Below are positions 12,078 through 31,239 of a DNA stretch of 48,513 nt, one piece after another; position 1 is the stretch's first letter, and each line of letters begins with the position of its first letter. The position numbers and the translations under genes are program-made. The stretch comes from Fibrobacterota bacterium. Its GTDB lineage: Bacteria > Fibrobacterota > Chitinivibrionia > Chitinivibrionales > FEN-1185. The stretch is taken from positions 1 through 48,513 of the forward strand of contig PLWQ01000017.1 in the NCBI GenBank assembly GCA_003165595.1, written 5' to 3'. The notes below the pieces were generated by a model. It was not told the origin of the DNA. It saw only the letters and a program-made list of their open reading frames with translations, and searched no databases.

Positions 12078-12107
12078 TACACACAATTTACAAGAGCAGG
12101 AGGGTAT

Positions 12108-13598
12108 ATGATGAAACTGCGGATCGCGCTTGCCGGCGCGCTTGTCGCCGTCGTTGCGCTGGGCCTGGCAGGATGCACGGGCATGAAGAAGCAAAAGCAG
12201 GAGTTTACCGTCCTCATCAGAATGATGCCGGCTCAACAGCGTTTCTTTGAGCAGGAGATCGTTGCAAAATTCAACAAGGAACACAATTGCAAGATTTCCG
12301 TCGCGCCGTTTACGAACCAGCTTGACATCGAGCGGTTTCTCAAACTTGACGCCGGCAAGGCGCAGCCGGAAATCGGCCTTGTCAAGACGCCGTTTGAGGT
12401 GACTCGCGTGCTGGTGTACAAAGGGTACATGCAACCGCTTACCGCGGTCGTCGATTCGGCGCAGGTGATGCAGGATCTCGCGGAATACCATCAGCTTGCC
12501 ACTGGTTTGGGATATGTAGACGGTTTGCCGTACTACATCCCCCGAAAGCTTGAGACCCGTGTTTTGTTCTACAGGAAGTCCATGGTGGCCGACGCCGTCT
12601 CCAAATTCGACAAGTACAAAAAGCAGATAAACGAGGACCTCAAGAAGCAGAACAAGTACGGTCTTCCCAAAGATTACGCTCTGGAAAGCGATCCGTCGCA
12701 ATGGGACTTCTATGACCTGTTCGTGGTGGGCTACATCTGGGCCAAGGAAGAGTATAACGGCGTCAAGATGCCGCGGCTTGCGCATCGCGGTGCGAAATAC
12801 GAAGGAACGGCGCTCGATCTCGTCGACCGCGCATTGCAATTGGGCGCCACCCACCAGGATATCCTGTCCCTGGGGGACAAGACGGCCCAGACGTTCTTGT
12901 GGGAGAACGTGTTTATTCGCAACGGCCTCTACAACCCTTCGATGTGGCAAGATCCCTGGCGCGGTTCCGATATTTACAACGGCATCAAGGACGGCAAAGT
13001 GTTTTGCACATATCTTCAGCAGATCGACTGCTTCAACGTGCACGGTTGGGCCGACGACCCGGGCATGCCGAGCTATTTACCGGATGTTAAGGATATGGGC
13101 CTCTGCGCCGTGCCCAAGGCCGTGTCGTTCGATCTCACCGCCCAGGGACAGCCGGTTGTCGACGGCACCCGTATGATTTCTACCGGCGGCTGGTGGTGGG
13201 GAATACCCAAGACGAGTCCCAACGCGAAGCTTGCCTACGAGTTCGCCCGGTTCGTCACCAACCACGACAACCAGGCCAAGGAATGCTCGAAGTTCGGCAT
13301 GATTCCTGTGCGCAAAGATATTCTTCTCAACCTGCCCAACGTGTTCGACGAAGGATGGGTTGGCGACATCTTCAAGACCTCGGTTGATCAGGTGAACACC
13401 AACCAGCTCACAACGGTTCCGCTTGTAAAGGGGTATCCGTTGGTGGCGCAGAATCTCATAGATGCCTGGTACAAACTGTGCGTCGGCTACGACGAGAAGA
13501 AAGACGGCAAAATTGACGCCGAAATCATGAAGCAGAATCTCGTCAAGGATTTTGGCCCAAAAGAGAAAGAAATTCTGGGTGCCGATTATCCCAAATAG
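12108..13598 (+). CDS. ABC transporter substrate-binding lipoprotein (carbohydrate type)
   Basis: 496 residues. The N-terminus is a lipoprotein signal with lipobox LAGC (Cys near residue 23), so the protein is tethered to a membrane. The fold signature is that of family 1 extracellular solute-binding proteins: the opening strand FTVLIRMMPAQQRFFEQEIV with KFNKEHNCKISV, a central GLPYYIPRKLETRVLFYRKS hinge segment, and TGGWWWGIPKTSPNAKLAYE near residue 363. AGGAGG precedes the start by about eight bases (ATG 12108 and 12111 both possible). Two permeases and an ATPase follow in order, giving a full importer. The ligand is probably a mono- or oligosaccharide by family, not determined. Confidence 0.9.
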   Translation: MMKLRIALAGALVAVVALGLAGCTGMKKQKQEFTVLIRMMPAQQRFFEQEIVAKFNKEHNCKISVAPFTNQLDIERFLKLDAGKAQPEIGLVKTPFEVTRVLVYKGYMQPLTAVVDSAQVMQDLAEYHQLATGLGYVDGLPYYIPRKLETRVLFYRKSMVADAVSKFDKYKKQINEDLKKQNKYGLPKDYALESDPSQWDFYDLFVVGYIWAKEEYNGVKMPRLAHRGAKYEGTALDLVDRALQLGATHQDILSLGDKTAQTFLWENVFIRNGLYNPSMWQDPWRGSDIYNGIKDGKVFCTYLQQIDCFNVHGWADDPGMPSYLPDVKDMGLCAVPKAVSFDLTAQGQPVVDGTRMISTGGWWWGIPKTSPNAKLAYEFARFVTNHDNQAKECSKFGMIPVRKDILLNLPNVFDEGWVGDIFKTSVDQVNTNQLTTVPLVKGYPLVAQNLIDAWYKLCVGYDEKKDGKIDAEIMKQNLVKDFGPKEKEILGADYPK

Positions 13599-13610
13599 CC
13601 ACATGAGCGA

Positions 13611-14510
13611 ATGAGCGAGGCGTGGCAAAAAGTAAAACGTTTCAAGATCCACGAGGTATGGCCGCTGCTGCCGGCGGCGGTCTATCTCGTGGGTTTTTTG
13701 GTTATTGTTGGAGCGTACCTCGTTGGACTGAGCCTCTCATTTGAAAAGAACGGTGTCACTGTTTTCCCTACCCTGCGAACCGTCGCGGCGGTAGTCTCGA
13801 ACACGGAATTCCGCCACGCCCTGCTCGACACTGCGTTGTTCGTGATCGTGGGCACACCGCTTGAGCTTGCCGTCGGTCTTTTCCTCGCCCTTGTCCTGTA
13901 TCAGCAATTCAGGTTTCGGAACTTTGTTCGCAGCCTGTTTCTTGTTCCGCTTGCCGTCCCCGCACTCGTCACGGCGACCCTGCTCTTTATTCTGTTCGAT
14001 TATCCGGGCGGACATGTCAACTTTCTTCTCACCGGTAAATATGCCTTTTTCCCGGCGATTCTCCACGCTCCCGTCAATTGGCGGGGCTCGGAGGTGTTCG
14101 CCCTGGGGATCTCCATGATCGGCAAGGTGTGGCGGGACATGCCTATTTCCATGTTGATCCTCCTGTCGGGCCTCAACGCCATCGATCCGGAGTTATTCGA
14201 CGCGGCTCGCACGATGGGCGCGGGGCTGCGGACGCGGATCTGGCGTGTGGTGCTTCCGCTCATGATTCCCTCGATGTCGGCGGTTATCCTGCTCCGGTCA
14301 ATCGAAATGTGGAAGGAATTCATTTTCCCCTTTATCCTTGCCGGAAAGTACCCCTTGCTCGGCACGCTCATCGAATCCATGTATAACGACTGGGGGAATT
14401 CAAACGGCGCGTCGGCGGTTGCCGCAATTCTGGTCCTGTGCATCGTGGTAACAACGCTCCTGTTTCTTTCCATAATGGAATTTCTCAGAAGGAAGCTGGT
14501 GAGAACGTGA
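13611..14510 (+). CDS. Sugar-type ABC transporter permease 1 (MalF/UgpA-like)
   Basis: 299 residues with six membrane helices. The EAA loop that docks on the ATPase reads DAARTMGAGLRTRIWRVVLP (near residue 200), matching the family pattern with the invariant Gly. The first helix follows a short basic N-terminus, as in MalF/UgpA-type proteins. It begins 13 bases after the binding-protein gene and overlaps the next permease by four bases, so the three are co-translated. Confidence 0.92.
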   Translation: MSEAWQKVKRFKIHEVWPLLPAAVYLVGFLVIVGAYLVGLSLSFEKNGVTVFPTLRTVAAVVSNTEFRHALLDTALFVIVGTPLELAVGLFLALVLYQQFRFRNFVRSLFLVPLAVPALVTATLLFILFDYPGGHVNFLLTGKYAFFPAILHAPVNWRGSEVFALGISMIGKVWRDMPISMLILLSGLNAIDPELFDAARTMGAGLRTRIWRVVLPLMIPSMSAVILLRSIEMWKEFIFPFILAGKYPLLGTLIESMYNDWGNSNGASAVAAILVLCIVVTTLLFLSIMEFLRRKLVRT

Positions 14511-15364
14511 GCACAATCGCGCGAGTCAAATCCTTGCCTGTCGAAGGACTCAAGAAGGCCCTCTGGGTTGCGAGTATCGCGGCCGCGGTGCTGCTTGTTG
14601 CCGGGCCGGTGTACATGCTTTTTAAATACTCCATCAGCGATAGCACGAGCATAAACACGGGAGGCGCACCCATACCTCTGTGGCCCTATCACCCCACGTT
14701 CAGGTGCTTTACCTACCTGTTTTCGGATTCGCAATTCTTCGGTGTCATCACCAACAGCTTTGTCATCGCCGCTTGCACGGTAGGAATGTCGATGCTCCTG
14801 GGCGTTCCGGCCGCCTACGTTCTCGGCCGGTTTCGGGTACCGGGAAGACGATTGCTTCTGCTGGGACTCATTTCGGTCCGGCTTTTTCCCGATATCGCCT
14901 CGGTTATTCCCATCACCGAGTTCTTCATACGTTTCAAGCTGCAAAATACCTACACCGGCGTTATCCTTGCCCATACCCTGCTCGCATTGCCCTATGTCAT
15001 CTTCATCGGCATGAGCGCTTTCGAGGCCATACCGGACGATCTTGAACAACAGGCCCGCGTGATGGGCGCAAACGGCTTTTCGGTTTTCTTCAGGATTCTG
15101 CTCCCGCTTTCCATTCCCGGTCTCGTGGCCGCGGCCATCTATACGTTTCTCCTCTCGTGGGACGAATTCATCTTTGCCTATTTCATCCTGGGGCTTGGGA
15201 AGATCTCAACGCTTACCTTGTTTCTCAAGCAGAAGCTTGCCTTTTCTCCGCCGCAGAACCTGCTGGCGGCGATATCGGTTCTCCTGAGCCTGCCGGTTAT
15301 CGTATTTTCCCTGATGCTGCAGAAGTACATGACCGCGGGCATCACCACCGGAAGCGTCAAATAG
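14507..15364 (+). CDS. Sugar-type ABC transporter permease 2 (MalG/UgpE-like)
   Basis: About 285 residues. The frame is open from 14438, but GTG 14507 is the likely start: it overlaps the preceding TGA by four bases (GTGA) and yields a normal MalG-like N-terminus before the first helix. Six membrane segments are visible. The EAA loop is EQQARVMGANGFSVFFRILL, with the conserved Gly, near residue 180. The segment LSWDEFIFAYFIL near residue 215 is typical of MalG/UgpE permeases. It would pair with the upstream permease to form the channel. Confidence 0.9.
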   Translation: MSTIARVKSLPVEGLKKALWVASIAAAVLLVAGPVYMLFKYSISDSTSINTGGAPIPLWPYHPTFRCFTYLFSDSQFFGVITNSFVIAACTVGMSMLLGVPAAYVLGRFRVPGRRLLLLGLISVRLFPDIASVIPITEFFIRFKLQNTYTGVILAHTLLALPYVIFIGMSAFEAIPDDLEQQARVMGANGFSVFFRILLPLSIPGLVAAAIYTFLLSWDEFIFAYFILGLGKISTLTLFLKQKLAFSPPQNLLAAISVLLSLPVIVFSLMLQKYMTAGITTGSVK

Positions 15365-15371
15365 AGGGTCC

Positions 15372-16484
15372 ATGGCGGATGTAGTCTTAAAGAACGTCTC
15401 GAAACGCATGGGATCAAGTCAGGTCATCGACGGGTTCAGCCTCGACGTCGCAAACGGCGAATTCGTCACCCTGCTCGGGCCGTCCGGGTGCGGCAAGACC
15501 ACGCTGCTGCGAATGATAGCGGGCCTCGAAACAGTTGACAAAGGAGATGTCCTTGTCGGCGGGAAGCGGTATAACAACCTTCCGGTGCAGCAACGGAATC
15601 TTGCCATGGTGTTCCAGAGTTACGCGCTGTTCCCGCACATGACCGTTGCGCAGAACATCCGTTTCGGGCTTTCCATCCACAAGGCGCCTGCCGAGACGAT
15701 CCGCCGGAAACTTGCCTGGTCTCTGGACATGTTCGGGCTTTCCGGTCTGGAAGACAGGCTGCCGAGGCAAATTTCCGGCGGCCAGCGGCAGCGCGTTGCG
15801 CTCGCCCGGGCGCTGGTGCTCGACCCCGACGTGCTGCTCCTTGATGAGCCGCTGAGCAACCTCGACGCGGCTTTGCGAGACACCGCCATGGAAGAGCTCA
15901 AGAGGATCCACCACCAGGTCGGCACAACAATCATTTACGTGACGCACAATCAGGTCGAGGCGATGACCATGAGCCAGCGCATAGCGGTACTTTCGGCCGG
16001 CCGGCTGGAACAGTACGACACGCCCCGCGCGGTGTACGATTCGCCGGCAACGCGGTTCGCTGCGTCGTTTATCGGCAGCCCGGCCATGAATTTTCTCAAC
16101 GGCGCGGTAGAGGTGCATGGAGAAGATGCTGGCGTAATGACGCCGGTAGGATTTGTCAAACTGGATAAGGAACGGTTCACGAGCGCGAAGGCCATGGCGG
16201 GACGCTCGGTAACGGTGGGCATCAGGCCGCAGAACATCGCCTATGCCGAGCACCACGAATCGAAACGGTATTCCGATACCACGCTCAGCGTTTCGGTGGA
16301 GCTTGTGGAAACCCTCGGCGATCGGAGCCTGGTGGTGTCACGCGGAGAAAACGGCACGGCGCTGCGATTCCTCATCACGCGCGATATCGACATAGAACCG
16401 CAGGAAATGGTTGAGGTGTTTCTCGACGGCAGGCGCGTACACCTGTTTGATCCCCAAACCAACGCCAACGTGTTTTCTTTTTGA
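15372..16484 (+). CDS. ABC transporter ATP-binding protein (MalK/UgpC/MsmX family)
   Basis: 370 residues. Motifs in order: Walker A GPSGCGKTT (residues about 37-45), Q-loop in MVFQSYALFPHMTV, signature SGGQRQRVALARAL, Walker B VLLLDEPLSNLDAALR, and the switch His in YVTHNQVEAMT. The C-terminal third (about 240-370) is the TOBE/regulatory domain of MalK-type ATPases. It completes the importer with the binding protein and two permeases. Such ATPases sometimes serve several sugar importers, so it may not be exclusive to this one. Confidence 0.93.
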   Translation: MADVVLKNVSKRMGSSQVIDGFSLDVANGEFVTLLGPSGCGKTTLLRMIAGLETVDKGDVLVGGKRYNNLPVQQRNLAMVFQSYALFPHMTVAQNIRFGLSIHKAPAETIRRKLAWSLDMFGLSGLEDRLPRQISGGQRQRVALARALVLDPDVLLLDEPLSNLDAALRDTAMEELKRIHHQVGTTIIYVTHNQVEAMTMSQRIAVLSAGRLEQYDTPRAVYDSPATRFAASFIGSPAMNFLNGAVEVHGEDAGVMTPVGFVKLDKERFTSAKAMAGRSVTVGIRPQNIAYAEHHESKRYSDTTLSVSVELVETLGDRSLVVSRGENGTALRFLITRDIDIEPQEMVEVFLDGRRVHLFDPQTNANVFSF

Positions 16485-18403: not shown

Positions 18404-18889
18404 ATGAAATGCCCCTACTGCGGACATGAAGAGGACAAGGTTGTCGATTCTCGTTCGAGCAAAGAGGGACAGGCGGTGAGGCGTCGCAGGGAATGCCTGA
18501 AGTGCGAAAAAAGGTTTACAACATACGAATACGTCGAGACGGTGCCGCTCACCATCATCAAGAACGACCAGCGGCGGGAGCCGTACGACCGCCAGAAGCT
18601 GATGAACGGGATTCTGTCGGCATGCAAAAAGCGGCCCATAAGCATGGACAAGATCGAGGCGGTTATCGACAGGATAGAGAACCAGATCCAGAAGCTCTCA
18701 AAGACGGAAGTTCCCAGCAAGGAAATAGGCGGCCTGGTGATGACCGAACTGTACCAGCTGGATGACGTTGCCTACGTCCGGTTTGCGTCGGTGTACAGGA
18801 AGTTTAAGGACAAGGGTGAATTCATCACCGAAGTGAAAGAGCTGGCTGCAAAGACCGACACGCAACACTCACGGGAGAGAAGCAGGTAG
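18404..18889 (+). CDS. nrdR: Transcriptional repressor NrdR of ribonucleotide reductase genes
   Basis: 161 residues, the usual NrdR size. Residues 1-45 form the zinc ribbon with Cys3, Cys6, Cys31 and Cys34 and the basic RRRREC segment. Residues about 49-139 are the ATP-cone that senses ATP/dATP. The signature starts MKCPYCGHEEDKVVDSR, which is family-diagnostic. In the family, dATP-bound NrdR binds NrdR boxes and represses ribonucleotide reductase. AAGGAGA lies about nine bases before the ATG. No nrd structural gene is in the window. Confidence 0.96.
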   Translation: MKCPYCGHEEDKVVDSRSSKEGQAVRRRRECLKCEKRFTTYEYVETVPLTIIKNDQRREPYDRQKLMNGILSACKKRPISMDKIEAVIDRIENQIQKLSKTEVPSKEIGGLVMTELYQLDDVAYVRFASVYRKFKDKGEFITEVKELAAKTDTQHSRERSR

Positions 18890-18920
18890 CCTCGCCTGCG
18901 AGGCCGTACCGCGGCGAGAT

Positions 18921-19136
18921 TTAATCGAGCCGGATCACGCTTCCCGACGCATTTGTTTCGTCGAAGAAGTCTTCTTTGAAGTAGAAGAACCCCTGATCGT
19001 CGTCCGAATAGAACTCGGACGCCTCTTCGGAGAAAAACGTTTTCAGCGCAGAATCCTGGTCCTGACTTTCGACAATGCGATGCCGGAGCAGATTGGACTT
19101 TGCCGGCGCGATAAATGCGATTGAGAATTTCGGCAT
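18921..19136 (-). CDS. Small acidic protein of unknown function
   Basis: 71 residues on the minus strand, convergent with nrdR. The sequence starts MPKFSIAFIAPAKSNLLRHR and has an acidic/aromatic C-terminal half (DDDQGFFYFKEDFFDETN). The opening resembles a beta strand followed by a helix. A GGAGG element about eleven bases before the ATG supports translation, as does protein-like composition. I recall similar short proteins with a YFKEDFFD-type end in other genomes but cannot name a family. Its stop is 32 bases beyond the nrdR stop. Confidence 0.6.
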   Translation of the reverse strand: MPKFSIAFIAPAKSNLLRHRIVESQDQDSALKTFFSEEASEFYSDDDQGFFYFKEDFFDETNASGSVIRLD

Positions 19137-19216
19137 ACGAGCGATGACCTCCAGACCTTTCGAAAAATTGGCACACAGTGAAAAACTAACTTCCTTTAAA
19201 AATAGGTTGTGAAATC

Positions 19217-20809
19217 ATGCAAGAAAATAAAAATTGCATAATTATTTGTTTGCCCCCCCCTGCCATTGCTAAACACGAGGTCTCCGGTACGAGCCTTATC
19301 CGTGGCGACGGCGCGGTTACCGGCAGACTATTCTTCGGTATGATTCTAGCCGCGTTTCTGTGCGCGAGCGCCCAGGAACAGGCCGCTCCTGCGCCGAAGC
19401 AGGCATCGGATTCGGCGCGCGCATCCTCCGGCAACAGAGTCATCTCGAAACTGGAGGCGTTGCTTGCGCACGGCAAGTATTCGTTGCAGAACGTGGGCGT
19501 GGTGGTAAAGGATCTCGACAGAGATTCGGTGATTGTAGCGCTCAACGCGGATTCTCTGTACAACCCGGCATCCGTGTCAAAACTGCTCACTACGGCCATG
19601 GCATTTGAAAGACTTGGAACGAACTATGCCTTCGAGACGTCGGTCTACTGCGAAGAACCCATTGCTGCCGATACCGGCATATGCCACGGGAATCTGTATG
19701 TCCGGGGAGGCGCAGATCCGTATTTTGTAATAGAGCGGATGTGGCTGTTTGTCCAGCACCTCATATGCATCGGGCTCAAGTCGATTGAAGGCGACGTCGT
19801 GCTCGATGATTCGTTCTTCGATTCAAACTCGGTGGGTCCGGGCTTTGACGAAGACGACTCAAGCCATCCGTATGTCGCGCCCGTGGATGCGGTAAGCGCC
19901 AATTTCAATTGCGAGAGCATCTGGATTCGGCCGGGCCGGACCGTGGGTTCTCCAGTGCTCGTAGACATACTTCCCAAGGCGTCCATCGTTAAACTTGTTG
20001 TTTCGGCGCAGACGACCGCGGCCGGAAAGCCGTTTTCCGTTGCCGCAGGCACCCAAAGAGACGGCGACAAAACGCTGGTAACGGTGTCCGGCGGCATGCC
20101 CATCGATGCGAGCCCGGTTGTGCAATACAAGAAAGTCTGGCAAACATGGGAGTATTTCGGCAACGTGTTCGAGAAGCTTCTTGAGGATAACAAAATCAAG
20201 TTCAAGGGAAAAATAAGGCGGAGCGTTGTCCCGGATTCGGTAAAGGCCCGGGGTCCGTTGTACGTGTTCCCGTCCGTGCCGCTGTACGAGGCCGTGAATT
20301 CCATGAACAAGGTTTCCAACAATTACATGGCCGAAATGCTGTTCAAGACCCTCAGCGCCGGGACGGACTCGGCGAAAGGTTCTTGGGAAAAGTCGGCGGC
20401 GCTCGCGCTCGCATGGTGGAAGGAGAAAAAGCTTCCGGGAGTCCCAAGAATCAAGAATGGCTCGGGAATGGGCGACAGCAATCGCATGAGCGCCCGGCAG
20501 ATTACGGAACTGTTACGGTTCGTCTGGACCCAGAAATCATTCTTTCCCGAATACGTGTATTCGCTTCCCTCCGCGGGAATAGACGGCACGCTCAAGTCCA
20601 GGTTCAAGGAATCGCGTCTCAAGGGTATTGTGCGCGCCAAGACCGGCACCCTTAACGACTACGGCGTGAGCACGATTGCCGGGTACGCGTTTGTCCAGAA
20701 GAAGACATACGCGTTTTCGGTGATGTTCTGCAACTGCACCAACGTGAGACTGCATAACAACTGGGAAACGCAGGAGAAAATACTGGAGCTCGTGATCCCG
20801 GAGAAATAA
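19217..20809 (+). CDS. dacB: D-alanyl-D-alanine carboxypeptidase/endopeptidase (PBP4, DacB family, S13)
   Basis: 530 residues as read from ATG 19217. Active-site motifs of the penicillin-binding family: S-V-S-K (Ser119, Lys122) in NPASVSKLLTT, SNN near residue 366 in KVSNNYMAEM, and KTG near 475 in VRAKTGTLNDYG. It should trim peptidoglycan peptides in the periplasm. The N-terminus is odd. A hydrophobic signal-like segment (LFFGMILAAFLCASAQ) lies at residues 38-53, preceded by an unlikely leader encoded across a run of eight C (19253-19260). A later start (for example ATG 19340), or a length change in the C-run, may be the real arrangement. Family assignment is firm; start is uncertain. Confidence 0.88.
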   Translation: MQENKNCIIICLPPPAIAKHEVSGTSLIRGDGAVTGRLFFGMILAAFLCASAQEQAAPAPKQASDSARASSGNRVISKLEALLAHGKYSLQNVGVVVKDLDRDSVIVALNADSLYNPASVSKLLTTAMAFERLGTNYAFETSVYCEEPIAADTGICHGNLYVRGGADPYFVIERMWLFVQHLICIGLKSIEGDVVLDDSFFDSNSVGPGFDEDDSSHPYVAPVDAVSANFNCESIWIRPGRTVGSPVLVDILPKASIVKLVVSAQTTAAGKPFSVAAGTQRDGDKTLVTVSGGMPIDASPVVQYKKVWQTWEYFGNVFEKLLEDNKIKFKGKIRRSVVPDSVKARGPLYVFPSVPLYEAVNSMNKVSNNYMAEMLFKTLSAGTDSAKGSWEKSAALALAWWKEKKLPGVPRIKNGSGMGDSNRMSARQITELLRFVWTQKSFFPEYVYSLPSAGIDGTLKSRFKESRLKGIVRAKTGTLNDYGVSTIAGYAFVQKKTYAFSVMFCNCTNVRLHNNWETQEKILELVIPEK

Positions 20810-20830
20810 TGGGTGGGAAAGGGACACTCG

Positions 20831-20950
20831 TTTGACCTCAGCCCTGGCCCCTCTCCCATGAGGAGAGGGGGAGAGCTTTCGATAGGCGCTTTCCCCCTTC
20901 TCCTTGTGGGAGAAGGGGGTGGGAGAAGGGGGAAGGGGGATGAGGTCAAA
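20831..20950 (+). repeat. Palindromic GC-rich repeat element bounded by a 10-bp inverted repeat
   Basis: TTTGACCTCA (20831-20840) and its exact complement TGAGGTCAAA (20941-20950) bound 120 bp that hold two hairpins: CCCTCTCC..GGAGAGGG, and CCCCCTTCTCC..GGGAGAAGGGGG. This is the layout of a small non-autonomous repeat (REP/MITE-like). It lies between dacB and the DUF559 gene. No transposase is present. Confidence 0.65.
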
Positions 20951-20968
20951 CGGAAAAAGCGAGAAAAC

Positions 20969-21364
20969 ATGAACCTCTCCACCGGTTTGATCCGGTTGCA
21001 GCGGATCAAAAACGCAATACTTGCCGCCGCCCGTTTATTGCGCAGGAAAATGACGCCATCGGAATCACTACTTTGGGAACAATTACGAAACAGAAGATGC
21101 GGCGGATTCAAGTTCAGACGGCAACAGATCGCAGAAGGGTTCATTGCCGACTTTTTCTGCGAGAAGGCAAAACTGGCGGTGGAAGTGGACGGCAATGTGC
21201 ATTCCGAGAAGGCGCAAATAAAAATCGACGAGCATCGTGAAAAAGTATTCAAGGCCCGCGGCATCCTCACGTATCGGATCAAGAATAATGAGATTGAGGA
21301 GAACCTTTCTGTCGTTCTCCTGGGATTAAGAAATGTCTGCGAGTTACGATCTACAATTCCATAA
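20969..21364 (+). CDS. DUF559-family endonuclease-like protein
   Basis: 131 residues from ATG 20969. The same frame is open from 20813, but that extension only translates the palindromic repeat (low-complexity Gly/Arg/Pro), so the internal start is preferred. The domain is diagnostic of DUF559 (Vsr-like, PD-(D/E)xK superfamily): LLRRKMTPSESLLWEQLRNR, then FKFRRQQ, then FIADFFCEKAKLAVEVDG with the catalytic-type Asp and E-x-D residues. Members are presumed DNA endonucleases; the cellular role is not established. It converges on the thaumatin-like genes and has no partner methylase. Confidence 0.85.
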   Translation: MNLSTGLIRLQRIKNAILAAARLLRRKMTPSESLLWEQLRNRRCGGFKFRRQQIAEGFIADFFCEKAKLAVEVDGNVHSEKAQIKIDEHREKVFKARGILTYRIKNNEIEENLSVVLLGLRNVCELRSTIP

Positions 21365-21384
21365 CCGGACATTCCGCAGGGATG

Positions 21385-21418
21385 GAAGAGGCCTCGCAGC
21401 TTGCTGCGAGGCCTCTTC
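21385..21418 (+). terminator. Perfect 15-bp hairpin between convergent genes
   Basis: GAAGAGGCCTCGCAG (21385-21399) and CTGCGAGGCCTCTTC (21404-21418) pair completely around a 4-nt loop, between the DUF559 gene and the convergent thaumatin-like gene. It is placed like a bidirectional terminator, but no T-run follows on either strand, so it could equally be a repeat or a transcript-stabilising stem. Confidence 0.5.
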
Positions 21419-21460
21419 ACCATCTTGAACCCCTACTGCAAATTGGTCCGTTCGCCCCAT

Positions 21461-22561
21461 TTACCTGGCAATCATCATTTCCTTTGTCGCTAACACGTGG
21501 TCCGACTTGAGGGCGACAATGTACACGCCTCCGTTCAGGTTCGGCACAGGAATACTTCCGGATTCACCAATTGCAGTTCGAAGCATTAGTCTTCCGGAAC
21601 AGGAATAGATCTCCAAGAATGCGGGTTCGTTTCCGCCATAGAGATACTTTAACTCTTTGTTTCTTGTTATTGAAACCGACGCGTTTCCAAGAAACGTGTA
21701 ATTCATAGTCGGCTTGTTATTGCTGATGACGGGAGACACGGGCGGCAAGCCAAAGTCAAGAATATAGTCGGGTCCATTCCCGCTATAGCCGGGTAAATTC
21801 GGCGATGGACAGGTAAACAGGCTATGAGGATCATCGTAAGGAAAACTGTACGAAGTTGGACAAGCAGCCTTTTTTATAGCAGCGCAGGGTGAACCAACAT
21901 CACCACTGCAATAAAAACCGTTGGTATCGAGTACCCCATTAATGGTATCCAATTTCAGCATAGACGCCGGCGCGGTTAAATACAAGTCTTTTTCGCAATC
22001 ATCCTGCCCGCCGCAAGTCCATCCTTCTCGGTTTTGGGTCGAGTCCCAGTGAGGATTATCAGGGGGGAACGTTCCCGGCTCAGGATAATACAACATGGGA
22101 AGGTTGTAGCCATCGACCAGGCTAACATCGTACCAATCGCACCCCCAGCCTGCATGTGACGTGATCTCCGCAAGCGTAAACGGTCCGTTTGCGTATTTGG
22201 GGTCCCAAAGGCCCCAGATTCTGGCAGATGCCCAGCCGTTCGGAATTTCGATTATTGTGTCGTGTCCAATCTTTAGGGTAAAAGTAAGGTTTGTCCAGCC
22301 CGCTCCACCATTGCCATTAACATGGACTGTGAGGTCCTTGTGCCAATAATTGTGCATGTAGTAGTGCCTCGTGCCAACGCCATATTTGCCGTTGGGATGA
22401 GGGAAAGTGTCTGCAAGAGCCGGGGCAAATTCTGGACCTCTCAGGATCGTATCAGCAACTGCCATAGTGCACTTCGAAAATGGCACGATTGATGTCGTCA
22501 TAGAAACGAATGCCGGAACCAGCAAACCAAATAGAATCGCACCAAATAAGAATCGCCTCAT
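21461..22561 (-). CDS. Secreted thaumatin-like protein with C-terminal T9SS-type sorting module, copy 1
   Basis: 366 residues. I choose ATG 22561 (MRRFLFGAILFG) because GGGGG (22568-22572) sits six bases upstream; the open frame extends to 22603. After the signal peptide, the body matches thaumatin-like proteins: WASARIWG, TLAEI, CDWYDVSLVDGYNLPM, DCEKDLYL, AACPTSYSFPYDD and a final DYILDFG strand. The Arg, Glu and Asp residues of the acidic-cleft REDDD set can be traced. The loop between RIWG and LAEI is shorter than in plant members. The last 75 residues (FLEIYSCSGRLMLRT, then GGVYIVALKS) form a T9SS type A-like module, implying export across the outer membrane. Plant relatives bind or cut beta-1,3-glucans; here the ligand is unknown. 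Confidence 0.85.
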   Translation of the reverse strand: MRRFLFGAILFGLLVPAFVSMTTSIVPFSKCTMAVADTILRGPEFAPALADTFPHPNGKYGVGTRHYYMHNYWHKDLTVHVNGNGGAGWTNLTFTLKIGHDTIIEIPNGWASARIWGLWDPKYANGPFTLAEITSHAGWGCDWYDVSLVDGYNLPMLYYPEPGTFPPDNPHWDSTQNREGWTCGGQDDCEKDLYLTAPASMLKLDTINGVLDTNGFYCSGDVGSPCAAIKKAACPTSYSFPYDDPHSLFTCPSPNLPGYSGNGPDYILDFGLPPVSPVISNNKPTMNYTFLGNASVSITRNKELKYLYGGNEPAFLEIYSCSGRLMLRTAIGESGSIPVPNLNGGVYIVALKSDHVLATKEMMIAR

Positions 22562-22737
22562 ACACATCCCCCTTTTTTGTTGATGATTCTTCAATGGGCC
22601 CATGCAAGCCCATCATTTTTTTTCTTTGCAATAGTCAATACGGCTTCTCTTCGCTGCAATCTTATTCCGTGACCATTCTTCTTACCGATTTCCGGCAGGG
22701 GCTCAAGATCTTGAACCCCTACTACAAATTCACCCCA

Positions 22738-23796
22738 TCACCTGGCAATCATCATTTCCTTTGTCGCTAACACATGGTCCGACTTGAGAGCGACAATGTA
22801 CACGCCTCCGTTCAGGTTCGGCACAGGAATGCATCCGGATTCATTTACTGCAGTTCGTAGCATTAGTCTTCCGGAACAGGAATAGATTTCCAGGAACGCG
22901 GGGGCCTTCCCGCCATAGAGATACTTCAATTCCTTATTCTTGGTTATCGTGACCGACGCATTTCCAAGAAACGTGTAATTCATCGTCGGCTTATTGTTGC
23001 CGATGACGGGAGAGACGGGCGGAAATCCAAAATCAAGAATATAGTCGGGTCCATATTTGGCATAGTTACCAAATGAGGCCGGAAGATTAGGCGATGGACA
23101 AGTATACAAGCTCGCGGCATCGTCATAGTCATAACTGTATGCGTAGGGACAAGCGGTTTTTTTTATGCTACGGCATTGAGCGTTATCCTGGCAATAGAAC
23201 CCATTGGTATCGAGAACTCCGTTGATGGTATTCGTTTTCAACATCGACGCCGGTGCCGACAAATACAAGTCTGTCGCGCAACCGGACGGGTTGCAAGAAT
23301 ATTGTGAAGATCGGCCCACGGACGCATCCAAAGCGGCGCTATCATGGTAGAACGTTCCCGTTATGGGCTTGAAAATCATGGGCATGTTGTAGCCGTCAAC
23401 AAGACTCACATCGTACCAATCCATGTGCCAATTCGCCCCCGTCCTTGAGTCCATGTTGATCTCGGCAAGCGAAAATGGTCCGTTTTGATATGAAGGGTCC
23501 CAATAACCCCAGATTCTTGCGGACGCCCAATTGTTCGGTTCTTGAATTATTGTGTCACGTCCCATCTTCAGCGTAAAAGAAAGGCTCATGCCGCTGCCTG
23601 TTGCGCGGACAGTGAGGTCCTTGTGCCAATAATTGTGAAGATAGAAATAACGCGTGCCTGCGCCATACTGGCCGGTGTGAGGCCATGTATCCGCAACTGC
23701 AGGATAACATTCTGGACACGTAAAGGTTGTATCGGCCGAAACTGAGAGCGGAAGGAGCAAACCAAACAACACAAAACCAAACAAGAACCCTTTCAT
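22738..23796 (-). CDS. Secreted thaumatin-like protein with C-terminal T9SS-type sorting module, copy 2
   Basis: 352 residues from ATG 23796 (MKGFLFGFVLFG), with GGGGG seven bases upstream; an ATG at 23802 is too close to that site. It is the tandem paralogue of the gene at 21461 and has the same order of motifs: HNYWHKDLTV, WASARIWGYWDP, LAEI, DWYDVSLVDGYNMPM, TACPYAYSYDYDD and DYILDFG. The C-terminal 75 residues are almost identical between the copies, while the thaumatin body differs more, especially in the loop after the NMPM motif (KPITGTFYHDSAALDAS). About 30 bp downstream of each stop are also similar, so the duplication included flanking DNA. Multiple Cys residues fit the disulfide-rich fold. 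It is transcribed towards copy 1 with a 176-bp gap. Confidence 0.85.
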   Translation of the reverse strand: MKGFLFGFVLFGLLLPLSVSADTTFTCPECYPAVADTWPHTGQYGAGTRYFYLHNYWHKDLTVRATGSGMSLSFTLKMGRDTIIQEPNNWASARIWGYWDPSYQNGPFSLAEINMDSRTGANWHMDWYDVSLVDGYNMPMIFKPITGTFYHDSAALDASVGRSSQYSCNPSGCATDLYLSAPASMLKTNTINGVLDTNGFYCQDNAQCRSIKKTACPYAYSYDYDDAASLYTCPSPNLPASFGNYAKYGPDYILDFGFPPVSPVIGNNKPTMNYTFLGNASVTITKNKELKYLYGGKAPAFLEIYSCSGRLMLRTAVNESGCIPVPNLNGGVYIVALKSDHVLATKEMMIAR

Positions 23797-24167
23797 GCAC
23801 ATCCCCCTTTATAATGAACGGTTCCCTACAGGACTATAATCGTTGCAATTCTGATTTTCATTTTCAACGTCAATAGCTGTGCCGCTGCAGTTGTGGAACG
23901 GGATCGGGTTATGAAGGATAATATACAGCAATTTCTTTGAACAAACGTCCAAAATACCGTTACCTGGCCATACAGCGACGATTGCTCATGAACAGCTTGA
24001 AAGGAATCAAAGCTCGTGGCGCGATAGACAATGCATAGCTCCTCTATTCTTGCCAATCAACGAAACGAAGAATGGGACAACGCTCGATTTCACAGATGCT
24101 GGTATGGTATTTGCAAATAAATGAACTGGGGTATCACTCTTGGCAGACTAACAAGATCGGAGGCCGT
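23797..24167. other. Divergent spacer between the thaumatin-like gene and the SRPBCC remnant
   Basis: About 370 bp with no convincing gene. A 76-codon minus-strand frame here has non-protein-like composition. The spacer must hold the promoter of the thaumatin-like pair; I see AT-rich DNA near 23845-23875 but no clear hexamer pair. Confidence 0.5.
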
Positions 24168-24428
24168 ATGACCAAGATCGTTGCTGCAATTGTCGCTGTT
24201 CTCGCCATTGTCGTCTCCTTTGTACTCATTTTTGCCGCGACCCAGCCGCCAACATTTCGAATTGAGCGCTCCGTGGCCATAAAGGCTTCGCCCGACAAGA
24301 TTTATCCCATCGTCGCCGACTTCCGCAGATGGGCCGACTGGTCGCCGGCCGCCGGCCCGTTCCCTACGTCTTCTCCCCGCGCGTCTGTCGCGCGCGGTGA
24401 GGCTGTGCTATCGACACTGCTCTGCTGA
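24168..24428 (+). pseudogene. Truncated SRPBCC/polyketide-cyclase-like membrane protein
   Basis: ATG 24168 has GGAGG just upstream. The first 60 codons read as a normal start of a family of membrane-anchored SRPBCC proteins: a hydrophobic anchor (VAAIVAVLAIVVSFVLIFAA), then FRIERSVAIKASPDKIYPIV and FRRWADWSP. From about 24348 the similarity stops and the frame ends within 27 codons in GC-rich, hairpin-forming DNA (CCGCGCG..CGCGCGG). Full relatives have about 170-180 residues. None of the other frames downstream restores the domain, so most of it is lost. The 200 bp before clpC hold no gene. Confidence 0.65.
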
Positions 24429-24629
24429 AAATCGATGACGCTCGACTCCTTTGAGGTCATGCGGCGAGGTCTTTTGGAGTTTTTGCCCGATCCTGGCGTC
24501 CAGGCCCCTGCCAAATAAAAACTATCCCGGTACGAAATCACTGGAATGGCCCAAATTATTTTCTAGGATTGGAACAAAGGGCCTCCTAACACGGTCAAAC
24601 CCAGAGAGCTATAAAGGGAAATAAACACC

Positions 24630-27071
24630 ATGGTCAACGGAATGTTCACCGACAGGGTAAAGAAAGTCATGCAGATAGCGCGCGAGGAAGCCGTGCGCCT
24701 GGGCAACGATTACGTGGGCACCGAGCACCTGCTGCTGGGCCTCATCAAGGAAGGCGACGGCGTTGCCGTTGCCGTGCTGCGGAGCATGGGCGTGGACCTC
24801 GACGAACTCGCTGCGAACATCGAAAAAGCGATCACCTCCACGGGCGGCATGATGACCATCGGACAGATGCTGCCGTTTACGCCCCGCGCCAAGAAGGTGC
24901 TGGAAATCGCGGCAAATGAGGCGCGTTCCATGTCGCACAAGTATATCGGCACCGAGCACCTGCTCCTGGCGCTCATGAAAGACACCGAGTCGACGGCCTC
25001 CAACGCGCTGGCCTCCGCCGGGCTCGAATACGACCGCGTCAAGGAAGAGATCAGCAGGGTGCTGCGCGGCGGCGAGAGCGTGGGAACTCCCAAGGAGAAG
25101 AGCAAGACGCCGTTCCTCGACCATTTCGGCAGGGACCTCACCAGTCTTGCGCGTGAAGGAAAGCTGGATCCCGTCATCGGCAGGGAAAAGGAGATTGAGC
25201 GCGTGGTCCAGATTCTCTCCCGTCGCAAGAAGAACAATCCGGTGCTCATCGGTGAGCCCGGTATAGGCAAGACGGCCATTGTCGAGGGATTGGCGCAGAA
25301 GATCTTCGACAAGAGCATACCGCAGGTGCTCGAAAACAAGCGCGTTGTCAATCTCGACATGGCTTCCATCGTCGCGGGCACCAAATACCGCGGTCAGTTC
25401 GAGGAGCGGCTCAAGGCGCTCATGGTTGAACTGCAGAAGAACGATAATATTATTATCTTCATCGACGAATTACATACCATCGTCGGCGCGGGCGGCTCCG
25501 AAGGGAGCCTCGACGCGTCCAACATTTTCAAGCCGGCTCTGTCGCGCGGCGAAATCCAGTGCGTCGGAGCGACCACGCTCGACGAATACCGGAAGTATAT
25601 CGAGAAGGACGGCGCGCTCGCCCGGCGCTTCCAGACCATCATGGTCAATCCGCCCAGCACGGCCGAAACCGTACAGATCCTCATGGGCCTTCGCCACCGG
25701 TACGAGGATCATCACAAGGTAACATATTCCGACAAAGCAATAGAGGCCGCGGTGAAGCTTTCCGAACGCTACATATCGGACCGGTTCCATCCCGACAAGG
25801 CGATCGACGTGATCGATGAGGCCGGCGCGCGCAAACGGCTCTCCAGCATGGAGATCCCTCCCGAGATACGCCAAATGGAGCTTGAGATCAACGAGGTGAT
25901 AAAGGAAAAGGAAAAGGCCGTTGAGCACCAGGAATTCGAGAAGGCGGCCAAGCTTCGCGACAAACAGGAAAAGCTCAAGGAAACGCTTCTCGAAAAGAAA
26001 GCGTTGTGGCGCAAGTCGAAATCCGAGGAGCGGCTCCTGGTCGACGAGCCTACCATCATCGAGGTGATCGCCACCATGACCGGCATTCCGCTGTCGCGGC
26101 TCGAACAGGAAGAATCGAAGAAACTCCTGCACCTCGAAGACGAGCTGCGCAAACGCGTGATAGGCCAGGACAAGGCGCTGGAGGCCGTGGCAAAGAGCAT
26201 CCGGCGCTCGCGCGCGGGCCTTCACAATGCGAAGCGGCCCATTGCCTCGTTTATCTTCCTGGGGCCCACGGGCGTTGGCAAGACCGAGCTTGCCAAGGCG
26301 CTTGCCGAGAACCTGTTCAGCTCCGAAGACGCGCTTGTGCGCATCGACATGTCGGAATATATGGAGAAGTTCGCCGTGTCGAGGCTGGTGGGCGCGCCCC
26401 CCGGATACGTGGGATACGAGGAAGGCGGGCAGCTCTCCGAGAAGATCCGCAAGAAACCGTATTCGGTCATTTTGCTTGACGAAATAGAAAAGGCGCATCC
26501 CGACGTTTTCAATATCCTTTTGCAGATCCTCGACGACGGCCTGCTCACCGACTCCTACGGCCGGCATGTCAACTTCAAGAATACTATCATCATTATGACG
26601 TCCAACGCGGGCACGCGGGACGTACGCAAGACCGGCAGCCTGGGGTTCGGCAAGTCCACCGACGTGTCCGACTACGAATCCATGAAATCGAAAGTGCTCG
26701 ACGAGCTCAAGCGGATTTTCAATCCGGAGTTTCTCAATCGCGTCGACGACACCATCGTGTTCAATCCTCTTGGCAAAGAGGAAATCGCCAAGATCGTGGA
26801 ACTCCAGCTCGCCGAGGTGCAGGAGAAGCTCACCGATCGGTCGGTTGTGCTGCGCGTGAGCGACGCAGCCAAGGCCTTCATCCTCGAACACGGTTTCGAT
26901 CCCATTCTGGGCGCCCGTCCCATGCGGCGTTCCATCCAGAAACTGGTGGAAGACCGGCTTGCAGAAGAATTCCTCAACAACAGGTTTACAGACGGCGATA
27001 CGATCCTCATTGAGGCCGGCAACGACCAATTGGAGTTCGCCAAGGCCCCTGTAGACCATGAAACCACGTAA
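24630..27071 (+). CDS. clpC: ATP-dependent Clp protease ATP-binding subunit ClpC
   Basis: 813 residues, normal for ClpC. N-terminal double Clp-N repeat (residues 1-150, [20 protein letters not shown], then [17 protein letters not shown] and its second copy). First AAA+ module has Walker A GEPGIGKT near residue 208. A UVR motif lies in the middle ([19 protein letters not shown], about 430-450), which separates ClpC from ClpA/ClpB. Second AAA+ module has GPTGVGKT near 545 and the C-terminal D2-small domain. It unfolds substrates for ClpP; no clpP is in the window. ATG 24630 and 24642 are both possible starts. Its last 14 bases overlap the start of the next gene. Confidence 0.96.
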
Positions 27072-30000
27072 GTGGGTTGTTGTCGTTTTTGCCTGTCTTC
27101 TCGCGGCGGCGGCGGGGATCGTGCTGGGAGTGCAGCGCCTGGAGAGAAACAGGGACATCGAACGTGTGCTGGTGCAGCGCCTTTCGGCGGCGACGGGCGG
27201 TGAATTCTCGGTGGGCCGCGTGCGACTCGGATTTTTCTCCGTCTACCTCAAAGACGTATCCGTCTCCCTGTCCATCCATTCCTTTGATGCAAGAGTCCGG
27301 GACATCCAGGTTGCATTTTCCCTGTGGAAACTTATGATGACCCGCGGCGACTTTTCCAGAAGCATCTCAAAAATCATTCTAATCTCCCCGGCGCTCGACA
27401 TCAGGCTTGCTCAGCTGGCTTCCACCGGGCGGCAGCCTTCGGCTTCCGGCGGCGGAACCGCGACGTTGCTGTCGGTGTTCAAGAACTTTCCGGTGCGATA
27501 TCTTCTTGTTCGGCGCGGGACCGTTACCCTGTGGACGGGCAAGGGCGCAAGCATGGTGCTGGGTGAAGAGCTTTCCGGAAAAGTCTGGGATGAAGACCGG
27601 GCTGTGATGATGGATTTGCGGGGCACCCTGGCGTCAAACCGGAAGAACCTTTTTCTGTCGGCCGCCTTTTCCAAGACCGGGGAACGCAACCGGGTATCGC
27701 TGCGGCTCGACAAGGCGCGCATACAGCGCAGTCTCGGCTTCCAAGCCGTCGATATAACTTCGGGAATGTGCGACGGCGTGTTTGAATTCTCTTTTCCCGA
27801 TTCGGTTACGGCCGCAACGTTCGAATCGAACGGCTGGCTCCACGTTTCGCACGGGACCTGCGCGATTGCCGGGTACGGCGCTCCCATTACGTCAATCGGC
27901 CTTTCTTTGGTCCTTTCCAATACCGTGATGCGGATCGATTCGCTTTCGTGCGAAACAAAGGGCTGCGCACTTTCGGCCAGGGGCACCTGGGATCTTATGG
28001 ATGTAGACAGCGGCGGGAGCAGTATAGTTGTGAGGGCCGGGGGAATTCGACCGGAAGCGCTTCCCGGGCTTCCGGCGTCGATTGCAAAGAACCTGTCCGG
28101 AACAGCGTGGGCCGAGGCGAAAGTGAGCAAGCGAAGGGGCGAATCTGCAACGAAGTTTCTGGTCACTTCGGGAGGCCTTAATCTTTACTCATTCCCCGTT
28201 ACGTCGGTGGAGTGCTCGGGCAGCTTCGATTCCACGCAGGTGACCGTTGATACGCTTGCGGTGCGCGGCCCTGCGCTGCGATGCGCGGCATCGGGAATTG
28301 CAACGTACGAGAAGAAGCCGGTGGCCTATTCGGTCTCGTTCAAGGCCGCATTGGATTCGGTCAAGAGCGTTCCGGCGATGCACGGCCAGGTCGCACTCGC
28401 CGGCACGGTGCGCGGCCTGGGCACCACCTACTACGTTGACGCAGTGGCAAGCAGCGGCTCGCTTCGTTTTAACGGGCTTCAGCTTGGCGCACCGGAAATT
28501 CATGTCACCACGGCAAACGGAAAGGGCCTCTCGTTTGCGACCCTGCCGGGGAACAATGCCTATTTTACCGCAACCGGCATTGTGGACAGCCTTGCGTCCG
28601 CATCCCCCCTCATAGCGTGCAATGCTGCCGTCGGTCCGCGATTTCTCACCGAGTGCATCGCTTTTGCAAATCCCGGCTTTGCGCGCTGCGTCGATTCTGC
28701 CTGGGCCGCCGTATCGTTCAAGGGCACGGCACGGGCATTCGGCGCCCGCGGACAAGCGGGACTCGTGCTCCGATCGGCCGGCGGCCTGCCCGCCATACGC
28801 GGCGGCGTCGACATCCAACTAGACAAAACGGAATCGGACAAGGCGGTTCGTTGGCAAATCGCGCAGAAAGGCCTCACAATTTCCGACAGCCTGGTGCCGG
28901 TCCGCGGCCAGGGATACCTGTGGCAGGATTCGCTCCGCATCGACTCGCTTGTCGCGCTTACCGCTTTCCGGGGTGCGGGCATGATTCGCTTGAACGGTTC
29001 GTCGGCGGGCGCGGACCTCACCGTGCGGTGTGTCGCCATGCCGGTGGCCGCTCTCAACAGGCTCTTCCTTAAAGGCAAGCTGCCGCTTTCGGATGGAACG
29101 CTGTCCGGTGCCACGCGTATTGTTGGCGGTCCCGAGAGGGTGCGCACCGATTCGGACCTTCATCTGCGGGGTGGTACGCTGGGCGCTTTCACGGCGGTGG
29201 AAACGGACGCGATCATTCAGACGCGCGACTCGATCTTCACGGTCCTCCCCCTTGTCATCCGGCACAAAGGACTCGCGCTTATCTCCGTCGACACGGTAAC
29301 GAACAGAAACGGGCTCCACTTCTCCGGATCCCTCAAAGAGGTGGAAGCGTCGACCTTGCTTGCGCCCCTGCTCCCCGAAGAATTTCGCGCCGATCACGAG
29401 ATCCGCGGCACCGTGTCCTGCGAGTTCTCGTCCGCTCCGTCGGGGGCCGCCAGCGTGACGCTGTATTCCGACATGCTGGCCATCGACTCATGGCAAATCG
29501 ACCGCATCCGGGCGAATGGAATAATTGACGGGAAAGGAATCCGTGTCCGGTCGTTTTCTGCCGAAGACTCGGTTCGGGCAAAGGTGACCGCCTCGGGTTT
29601 CGTGCCCTGGTCCATGATGACGGAATCGGAAAACGAGGGCGACACCCTTGATGCGCAGGCCCTGGTGAGCGGCGACCTTCTGGCCTCGCTGGAGCACAAC
29701 GCCGGGGTTCCGCTGTATCTGCCGGTGGCCGGGAGCGGCGCCGGAACAATAGAGGTTGCGCTCAGGGGAACGCGGGACAACATGCGCCTCACCAAGGCCG
29801 CAATTCAGATTCCGCGCGGCGTGCTGCGGGCAAAGCCCTATGTGCCCGAAGAAATACGGGATTTGTCGCTGCGCATGACTCTCGAGAACGCCACCGCCCC
29901 GGCCGATTCCGAAGAAGACAACGGGTTCGGAGTCGCGAGCATCAATACCGTCCTAACCGGGACCATCGGCCGCAGGCCGGTTCGCATTCACTCCACGCAT

Positions 30001-31239
30001 GCCGTTCCAACCGGCTTTGAGCCCCTCACGCTCGGGTTCCTCGATTTCGGCGTCCTGCTCATCAGCACGCCCAAACACGGCGTCGACGTTCACGTGCCGG
30101 GCATCATGGAAATCGGGGCTGCGGGCGACGTCGAGCTCCTTGCCAAACAGCCGTTCCCCGAATTCGCCTTGTCGGGTCCTCTCGACCACCTCTGCATCAC
30201 GGGAACCTGGGTGATGCGCTCCACCGACATTACTTTTCCGCCGCTGGACAACGTCGAAACGCACGTCAAGTTCGATCCTTTCCCTTATATCAATTGGAAC
30301 CTCGACCTGCGCGCCGGCAACCGTAAGGTGACGTACTACTATGACATAGGAAAAAACAGGAACCTCATACGCTTTATCCAGTGCGACGTTGACCCGGCGT
30401 CGGTGCTGTCCTTGCGGGGCCGTGTGCTCGACAATTCGTTTAAGGTCCTCGGGTCGTTGCGGTCGAATACCGGCTCGGTGTTCTTCGCGCGGACCTTCGA
30501 CAGAAACGTGGACGTGGGGCTCGACTTTGTGCCCCAGCCACTCGGGCCCGGCAAAGGGTTCGACAACACGCCCATTATTTGGGGGAGCGCGGAAGCGATG
30601 TCCGACACCAGCAGGTTCGACCGCATCAAACTCACCCTGCTCGTGGGCGATTCGGGAACGGGCGGTTTGTCGGAGCGCGGCAGATTTTACGATGCGCATT
30701 TGAAGATCGGGAACAACATCGAGAATTTTCCCGGACAATCGCAGCAGCAATTCGTGAACGATCAGGGGAGCAAATACGGCTCTGTGGGCGGTGCCGGCCA
30801 GTTGGTGTCGTCGATGGGCGAGCAGTACCTGCACCGTATGCTGCTTCAGAACCTTGAACGCCGCCTCGCCAAGACACTGGGACTCGACGTAATTAACGTT
30901 GAAACCTCAATTGCGTCGAATTATTTTAGTAAGCTCTACATGCACCAATTCGATTGGAACAAATGGGATTACCTCACATTTGCAAACGTCGGCGTTACGG
31001 TAGGGCGGTACATACTATACGACAAGGTTTTCCTCAAATGGCGAACGGAACTGGTGCCCATCGATACGGTTCTGCGGCCGCAGTACGATGTCGGGTTTGA
31101 ATTCCAACCCCTGCAACCGATTCTCCTTGACGTCAATTACGGAATTTACAAGGGAGACAAGTCGCTGGAGGCCACCCCCACGGTGAATCTGTGGCTGCAA
31201 TTACCCATAAAAGACCTACGGAAACTTTTTGATTTCTAG
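27058..31239 (+). CDS. tamB: TamB-like translocation and assembly module protein (DUF490)
   Basis: 1393 residues. A single N-terminal membrane anchor (residues 5-25, VVVVFACLLAAAAGIVLG) is followed by a very long beta-rich periplasmic region of AsmA/TamB type (for example VLVQRLSAATGGEFSVGRVR at the start). The C-terminal part (about 1000-1393) corresponds to the DUF490 domain and ends IKDLRKLFDF. Family members span the periplasm and work with an Omp85 protein (TamA or BamA) in outer-membrane protein or lipid transport. No tamA is nearby, and bamA follows at once, an arrangement common where TamB works with BamA. ATG 27058 overlaps the clpC end, indicating translational coupling. Confidence 0.88.
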   Translation: MKPRKWVVVVFACLLAAAAGIVLGVQRLERNRDIERVLVQRLSAATGGEFSVGRVRLGFFSVYLKDVSVSLSIHSFDARVRDIQVAFSLWKLMMTRGDFSRSISKIILISPALDIRLAQLASTGRQPSASGGGTATLLSVFKNFPVRYLLVRRGTVTLWTGKGASMVLGEELSGKVWDEDRAVMMDLRGTLASNRKNLFLSAAFSKTGERNRVSLRLDKARIQRSLGFQAVDITSGMCDGVFEFSFPDSVTAATFESNGWLHVSHGTCAIAGYGAPITSIGLSLVLSNTVMRIDSLSCETKGCALSARGTWDLMDVDSGGSSIVVRAGGIRPEALPGLPASIAKNLSGTAWAEAKVSKRRGESATKFLVTSGGLNLYSFPVTSVECSGSFDSTQVTVDTLAVRGPALRCAASGIATYEKKPVAYSVSFKAALDSVKSVPAMHGQVALAGTVRGLGTTYYVDAVASSGSLRFNGLQLGAPEIHVTTANGKGLSFATLPGNNAYFTATGIVDSLASASPLIACNAAVGPRFLTECIAFANPGFARCVDSAWAAVSFKGTARAFGARGQAGLVLRSAGGLPAIRGGVDIQLDKTESDKAVRWQIAQKGLTISDSLVPVRGQGYLWQDSLRIDSLVALTAFRGAGMIRLNGSSAGADLTVRCVAMPVAALNRLFLKGKLPLSDGTLSGATRIVGGPERVRTDSDLHLRGGTLGAFTAVETDAIIQTRDSIFTVLPLVIRHKGLALISVDTVTNRNGLHFSGSLKEVEASTLLAPLLPEEFRADHEIRGTVSCEFSSAPSGAASVTLYSDMLAIDSWQIDRIRANGIIDGKGIRVRSFSAEDSVRAKVTASGFVPWSMMTESENEGDTLDAQALVSGDLLASLEHNAGVPLYLPVAGSGAGTIEVALRGTRDNMRLTKAAIQIPRGVLRAKPYVPEEIRDLSLRMTLENATAPADSEEDNGFGVASINTVLTGTIGRRPVRIHSTHAVPTGFEPLTLGFLDFGVLLISTPKHGVDVHVPGIMEIGAAGDVELLAKQPFPEFALSGPLDHLCITGTWVMRSTDITFPPLDNVETHVKFDPFPYINWNLDLRAGNRKVTYYYDIGKNRNLIRFIQCDVDPASVLSLRGRVLDNSFKVLGSLRSNTGSVFFARTFDRNVDVGLDFVPQPLGPGKGFDNTPIIWGSAEAMSDTSRFDRIKLTLLVGDSGTGGLSERGRFYDAHLKIGNNIENFPGQSQQQFVNDQGSKYGSVGGAGQLVSSMGEQYLHRMLLQNLERRLAKTLGLDVINVETSIASNYFSKLYMHQFDWNKWDYLTFANVGVTVGRYILYDKVFLKWRTELVPIDTVLRPQYDVGFEFQPLQPILLDVNYGIYKGDKSLEATPTVNLWLQLPIKDLRKLFDF

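Follow-up and report, generated by a model that had tools for sequence, protein, structure and literature searches.

Two adjacent thaumatin-like genes with predicted type IX sorting tails in a Fibrobacterota genome, and evidence for gene conversion of the tails

The window analyzed here, a 48,513-nucleotide stretch of contig PLWQ01000017.1 from a Fibrobacterota bacterium, harbors two adjacent minus-strand genes of matching architecture. Gene 1 (22738–23796, minus strand; 352 aa) encodes a signal peptide (residues ~1–21), a thaumatin domain (~47–260), and a C-terminal domain resembling type A domains of the type IX secretion system (T9SS; ~267–352). Its paralog, gene 2 (21461–22561, minus strand; 366 aa), is unlike gene 1 in its N-terminal region, where a 15-residue insertion follows the hydrophobic core of the signal peptide. 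In both genes, the start codon was taken as the ATG with an AAGGGGG ribosome-binding site upstream, and both proteins carry at the N-terminus a hydrophobic stretch resembling a signal peptide. The Pfam thaumatin profile (PF00314) scores 61.4 bits on gene 1 and 59.6 bits on gene 2, with E ~1e-16; these scores are about twice the cut-off of 27.4, so the match is far beyond chance and bears out a sequence-only reading that had placed two adjacent thaumatin-like genes at 21461–23796. In gene 1, the fold match over residues 47–261 and the Pfam stretch together delimit the thaumatin domain at 23014–23658 (minus strand). The C-terminal sorting modules lie at 22741–22998 (gene 1) and 21464–21721 (gene 2), both on the minus strand and 86 aa long, and are 92% identical, the gene 1 module being homogenized with that of gene 2; across the proteins, the bodies share 61% identity and the tails ~91–92%. 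The same early reading had described a common C-terminal module of 75 residues, and was right about the sharing, but short on the length, which is ~86–104 residues. Scans for promoters and terminators gave no signal clearly exceeding the shuffled expectation.

To our knowledge, thaumatin-like proteins have been studied nearly always as plant or fungal proteins, and our literature search found no paper describing thaumatins in Fibrobacter. The gene pair is an uncharacterized variant; the thaumatin family in bacteria and T9SS tails are each already known.

The thaumatin assignment is supported by predicted structure. An AlphaFold2 model of gene 1, computed from an alignment of both window proteins with twelve relatives, is of moderate confidence (mean pLDDT 66), rising to ~80 in the core strands. 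Its top Foldseek matches among solved structures are all thaumatin-like proteins. In VIA-align comparisons, residues 49–260 of the model superpose on osmotin (4l2j) with Z 18.1 and an rmsd of 2.1 over 167 residues; zeamatin and thaumatin give Z ~18, and the solved bacterial relative from Amycolatopsis (7p22) gives Z 17.5, after which the score drops to 12.3 for the GH64 beta-1,3-glucanase 3gd0. The three-domain thaumatin fold proposed from the sequence is thus found in the predicted model. The Arg/Glu/Asp cleft set proposed at the same time is likewise present in the sequence. By alignment, the REDDD residues of gene 1 (all on the minus strand) are Arg94 in ARIWG (23515–23517), Glu112 in LAE (23461–23463), Asp126 in DWYD (23419–23421), Asp134 in LVDG (23395–23397), and Asp225 in YDD (23122–23124), for which Asp226 is an alternative. 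These residues are named in the plant literature (PMC3048497; also PMC13148976), and among small plant thaumatin-like proteins their retention is no guarantee of an acidic cleft (PMC3048497).

The pair resembles plant PR-5 and thaumatin-like proteins (PF00314; osmotin 4l2j, zeamatin 1du5, PR-5d 1aun) in fold (Z ~18), motif order, and REDDD set, but it is not plant-type PR-5 in detail, because each body holds eight cysteines rather than the 16 (eight disulfides) of the plant-type criterion, and because the disulfide-rich loop is absent: between the Arg and Glu of the cleft, this subfamily lacks ~25 residues, four of them cysteines, leaving a shorter loop there. Unlike their plant counterparts, the window proteins are bacterial, and add an N-terminal PH..YG.GTR segment and the C-terminal sorting module. 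Thaumatin domains are known from other bacteria as well. The solved chain of the Amycolatopsis rifamycinica protein (7p22) has no sorting tail, and among the Legionella thaumatin proteins, LegT is named as a Dot/Icm effector (PMC4256840). A protein of Chitinophaga sp. YR573 (L023) likewise joins a thaumatin domain to a sorting tail (PF18962, 46.6 bits; TIGR04183, 40.4 bits), but it retains the full disulfide-rich loop, carries an extra CBM6, and falls outside the Fibrobacterota clade.

Thaumatins are rare in the phylum, occurring in five of the 168 Fibrobacterota genomes surveyed, with five copies in the window genome and three in its sister species. The closest named relatives are Fibrobacteres MAGs, and Fibrobacterota genomes encode the same proteins as those MAGs, which places the window in this phylum. 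In a tree that included Myxococcota, Actinomycetota, Spirochaetota, Bacteroidota, and two plant rows, the eight thaumatins of the genus and three from other Fibrobacterota form one clade (100/100). Recent transfer from plants is rejected by the separation of this clade from the two plant rows (100/100), and a phage origin was rejected on a tblastn search of gene 1 that matched no phage record. Within the Fibrobacterota clade, the window pair and the paralog on contig C20 make up the most divergent branch (length 0.98). This divergence is consistent with proteins that inhibit or decoy foreign glycanases, as does the wheat xylanase inhibitor TLXI, or with proteins whose ligand is not beta-1,3-glucan; TLXI itself is among the fold matches (Z 12.1). 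We consider such a role very improbable, as the REDDD residues are retained, relatives adjoin beta-1,3-glucan modules, and proteins of the TLXI type are far smaller. Directly upstream of the C20 thaumatin, at 13326–14726 (minus strand; L047), lies a 466-aa secreted-looking protein with no Pfam match.

The sorting tails score on either side of family thresholds. Against TIGR04183 (Por_Secre_tail; cut-off 23), genes 1 and 2 are borderline, at 22.7 and 20.1 bits by hmmscan and 26.2 and 23.5 bits by six-frame search, and, judging by the control genomes, weak hits to this model lack specificity; against PF18962, the tails score 17, below the cut-off of 27. In the gene 1 model, the tail resembles the C-terminal domain of a T9SS cargo bound to its translocon (8glk_D; Foldseek probability 1.00, TM 0.64 by target). 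Family searches of the genome, which the sequence-only reading had suggested checking for T9SS genes, recovered a SprA/Sov translocon (515 bits, confirmed on the protein), two PorU-type sortases above the cut-off (508 and 474 bits), a PorV-like protein below it (106 bits), and at least 78 ORFs whose sorting tails exceed the TIGR04183 cut-off in a six-frame search. An FGE-domain protein directly before sprA weakly matches PorK/GldK. The GldL and GldM motor models found no match in the genome, but they found none in the control genomes either. Given the SprA/Sov and PorU-like proteins and the many tailed ORFs, T9SS export is well supported, and the tail probably directs both proteins to the cell surface by this route. 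The same TIGR04183 surface-sorting route has been proposed, from proteomics, for polysaccharide enzymes of Fibrobacter succinogenes, a member of the same phylum whose T9SS/BTD-tailed cargo differs in consisting of cellulases and hemicellulases, with no thaumatins (PMC6851124). Sorting tails of one species can be incompatible with the system of another (PMC11285876). The tail superfamily is itself widespread in the window genome; a wider family for the exact module is rejected, since its close versions are confined to thaumatins, at 92% identity within the pair and 45% in the C20 copy.

Bodies and tails have different histories. The same pair occurs in the sister species (G031), but there the gene order is swapped and the neighboring genes are others. 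The bodies pair as orthologs: gene 1 is 79% identical at the nucleotide level to sister B and gene 2 is 82% identical to sister A, compared with 67% within the window genome, and body trees reject the alternatives to ortholog pairing (AU p 3e-5). The window tails, in contrast, are 89% identical to each other at the nucleotide level and 72–77% identical to the sister tails, and tail trees, based on 94 codons and two species, reject both ortholog-type topologies (AU p 0.017 and 0.016). Synonymous divergence follows this pattern. Within the window pair, dS is 0.44 for the tails and 1.33 for the bodies, while window and sister tails differ by 0.8–1.35. A sorting signal needs to retain its fold, and strong purifying selection on that signal could by itself keep two tails nearly identical, with no gene conversion involved; we give this explanation hardly any credence, as tail dS amounts to one third of body dS and falls below the values to the sister tails, and as the trees reject ortholog pairing for tails (AU p 0.017) but require it for bodies. 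The low synonymous divergence points to copying of tail DNA rather than merely to selection on protein. The evidence therefore supports gene conversion that homogenized the tail between the two window genes once the two species had separated, and the conflict between body and tail phylogenies supports what had been a guess from the letters. The companion idea, that binding is still diversifying, is not supported: as whole-domain averages, dN/dS of the bodies is 0.23 within the pair and 0.07–0.14 between orthologs, well below 1, and ongoing positive selection is thus rejected in favor of purifying selection. The bodies are two old, conserved paralogs. Conversion limited to the tail shows that the sorting module is able to evolve separately from its cargo, as a unit of its own.

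Gene neighborhoods and domain fusions suggest the likely ligand. On contig C13, three tandem GH64-family genes (10537–15401; L048) come directly after a more typical thaumatin, and in the sister species (L045) two such genes follow its thaumatin; for one of these GH64-family proteins, the best PDB match is a beta-1,3-glucanase. The three C13 proteins were also observed to carry N-terminal carboxypeptidase-regulatory and sorting-tail-like domains in place of a C-terminal tail. On contig C37, a thaumatin is preceded by a thaumatin/GH64 hybrid, with more glycan-active genes within 20 kb. This hybrid (18579–19910, minus strand; L046), directly upstream of the thaumatin, combines weak matches to both families with a sorting-tail-like end, and may represent a link between them. 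Beyond the phylum, a Spirochaetales protein (L022, 17–2650) fuses a thaumatin domain to three CBM6 and a GH16, and the Chitinophaga protein fuses one to CBM6 and a clear T9SS tail. GH64 beta-1,3-glucanases (3gd0, 5h9x) share a fold region with thaumatins (Z 12.3 between the gene 1 model and 3gd0) and adjoin other thaumatins of the window genome, but the window proteins themselves have no match to PF16483, the GH64 Pfam profile. GH64 occurs in eight of 168 Fibrobacterota genomes and in four of the five with thaumatin; the hypergeometric p of 1e-5 overstates this link, because no more than two lineages of the phylum contribute to it independently. The link comes from the more typical paralogs. 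A Pfam search of the window found no GH64 or other CAZyme adjoining the pair. Because other copies adjoin GH64-type glucanases, and thaumatin domains elsewhere occur in fusion with CBM6 and GH16, the two proteins likely have beta-1,3-glucan as their ligand.

Alternatively, the proteins could be surface endo-beta-1,3-glucanases of the thaumatin type (CAZy GH152-like), with the acidic cleft as the putative catalytic site. Fungal thaumatin-like proteins hydrolyze beta-1,3-glucan (PMC13148976), the fold adjoins that of GH64, the acidic residues are retained, and domain fusions with glucan modules occur. We nonetheless regard an enzymatic role as unlikely, in that the window genome already encodes about ten GH64-type proteins, beside which a binding helper role would be enough. 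It also counts against catalysis that many plant thaumatin-like proteins are described as glucan binders more than as strong hydrolases. A defensive or competitive role appears less probable again. Antifungal PR-5 proteins have the same fold and cleft and are thought to bind wall glucan and disturb membranes, so the window proteins might act as weapons or adhesins against fungi or competitors, and the differing location of the segment in the two species is of a kind often seen with accessory genes. But no toxin, immunity, or defense gene adjoins the pair, and paralogs in the same genome, together with the domain fusions, suggest polysaccharide use. Fungal targeting by this pair is speculation.

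We favor, as the probable explanation of the whole, surface thaumatin proteins with a glucan-binding cleft that are exported by T9SS and combine old bodies with a converted tail. Judging from their signal peptides, both proteins would pass the inner membrane through the Sec pathway. By analogy with established T9SS biology, the type IX translocon, SprA/Sov, would then recognize the C-terminal beta-sandwich in the periplasm, and a PorU-like enzyme would remove the tail, leaving the proteins released or anchored at the surface. There, the putative acidic cleft, which lies between the subdomains of the thaumatin fold, may grip beta-1,3-glucan chains, helping the cell to hold or loosen polysaccharide that the many GH64-type glucanases could then digest. 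The two bodies, kept by purifying selection, presumably differ in ligand preference, and the sorting tail of one gene was probably copied over that of the other once the sister species had diverged. A bacterial clade with predicted T9SS-displayed thaumatins and GH64 in the same genome may offer a simple setting in which to consider the role of the conserved acidic cleft, which is debated in plants.

The pair sits in a ~3.8 kb segment (20810–24610), between dacB and clpC, along with two further ORFs, one of the DUF559 family and one short and SRPBCC-like. The sister species has its thaumatin pair elsewhere, and a gap of just ~0.17 kb separates its dacB from its clpC; the segment has therefore been inserted in the window genome, lost in the sister, or moved. 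Mobile-element ends were rejected, as the flanks share no direct repeat of at least 11 bases, and no terminal inverted repeats that would be persuasive were seen. It is conceivable, though unlikely, that Fibrobacterota possess a class of surface thaumatins that act as beta-1,3-glucan receptors, with distinct bodies and a T9SS tail kept uniform by conversion, and that move between genomic sites like cassettes. The DUF559 ORF (20813–21364, plus strand), which is Vsr/restriction-endonuclease-like and convergent with the pair, belongs to the segment missing from the sister and may bear on its movement. The short ORF (24072–24428, plus strand) appears truncated, its match to Polyketide_cyc2 (SRPBCC) covering no more than positions 1–33 of the profile. 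Beyond the segment, after clpC, a 1393-aa ORF (27058–31239, plus strand) has no Pfam match; to judge from its length and surroundings, it may encode a TamB/AsmA-like protein.
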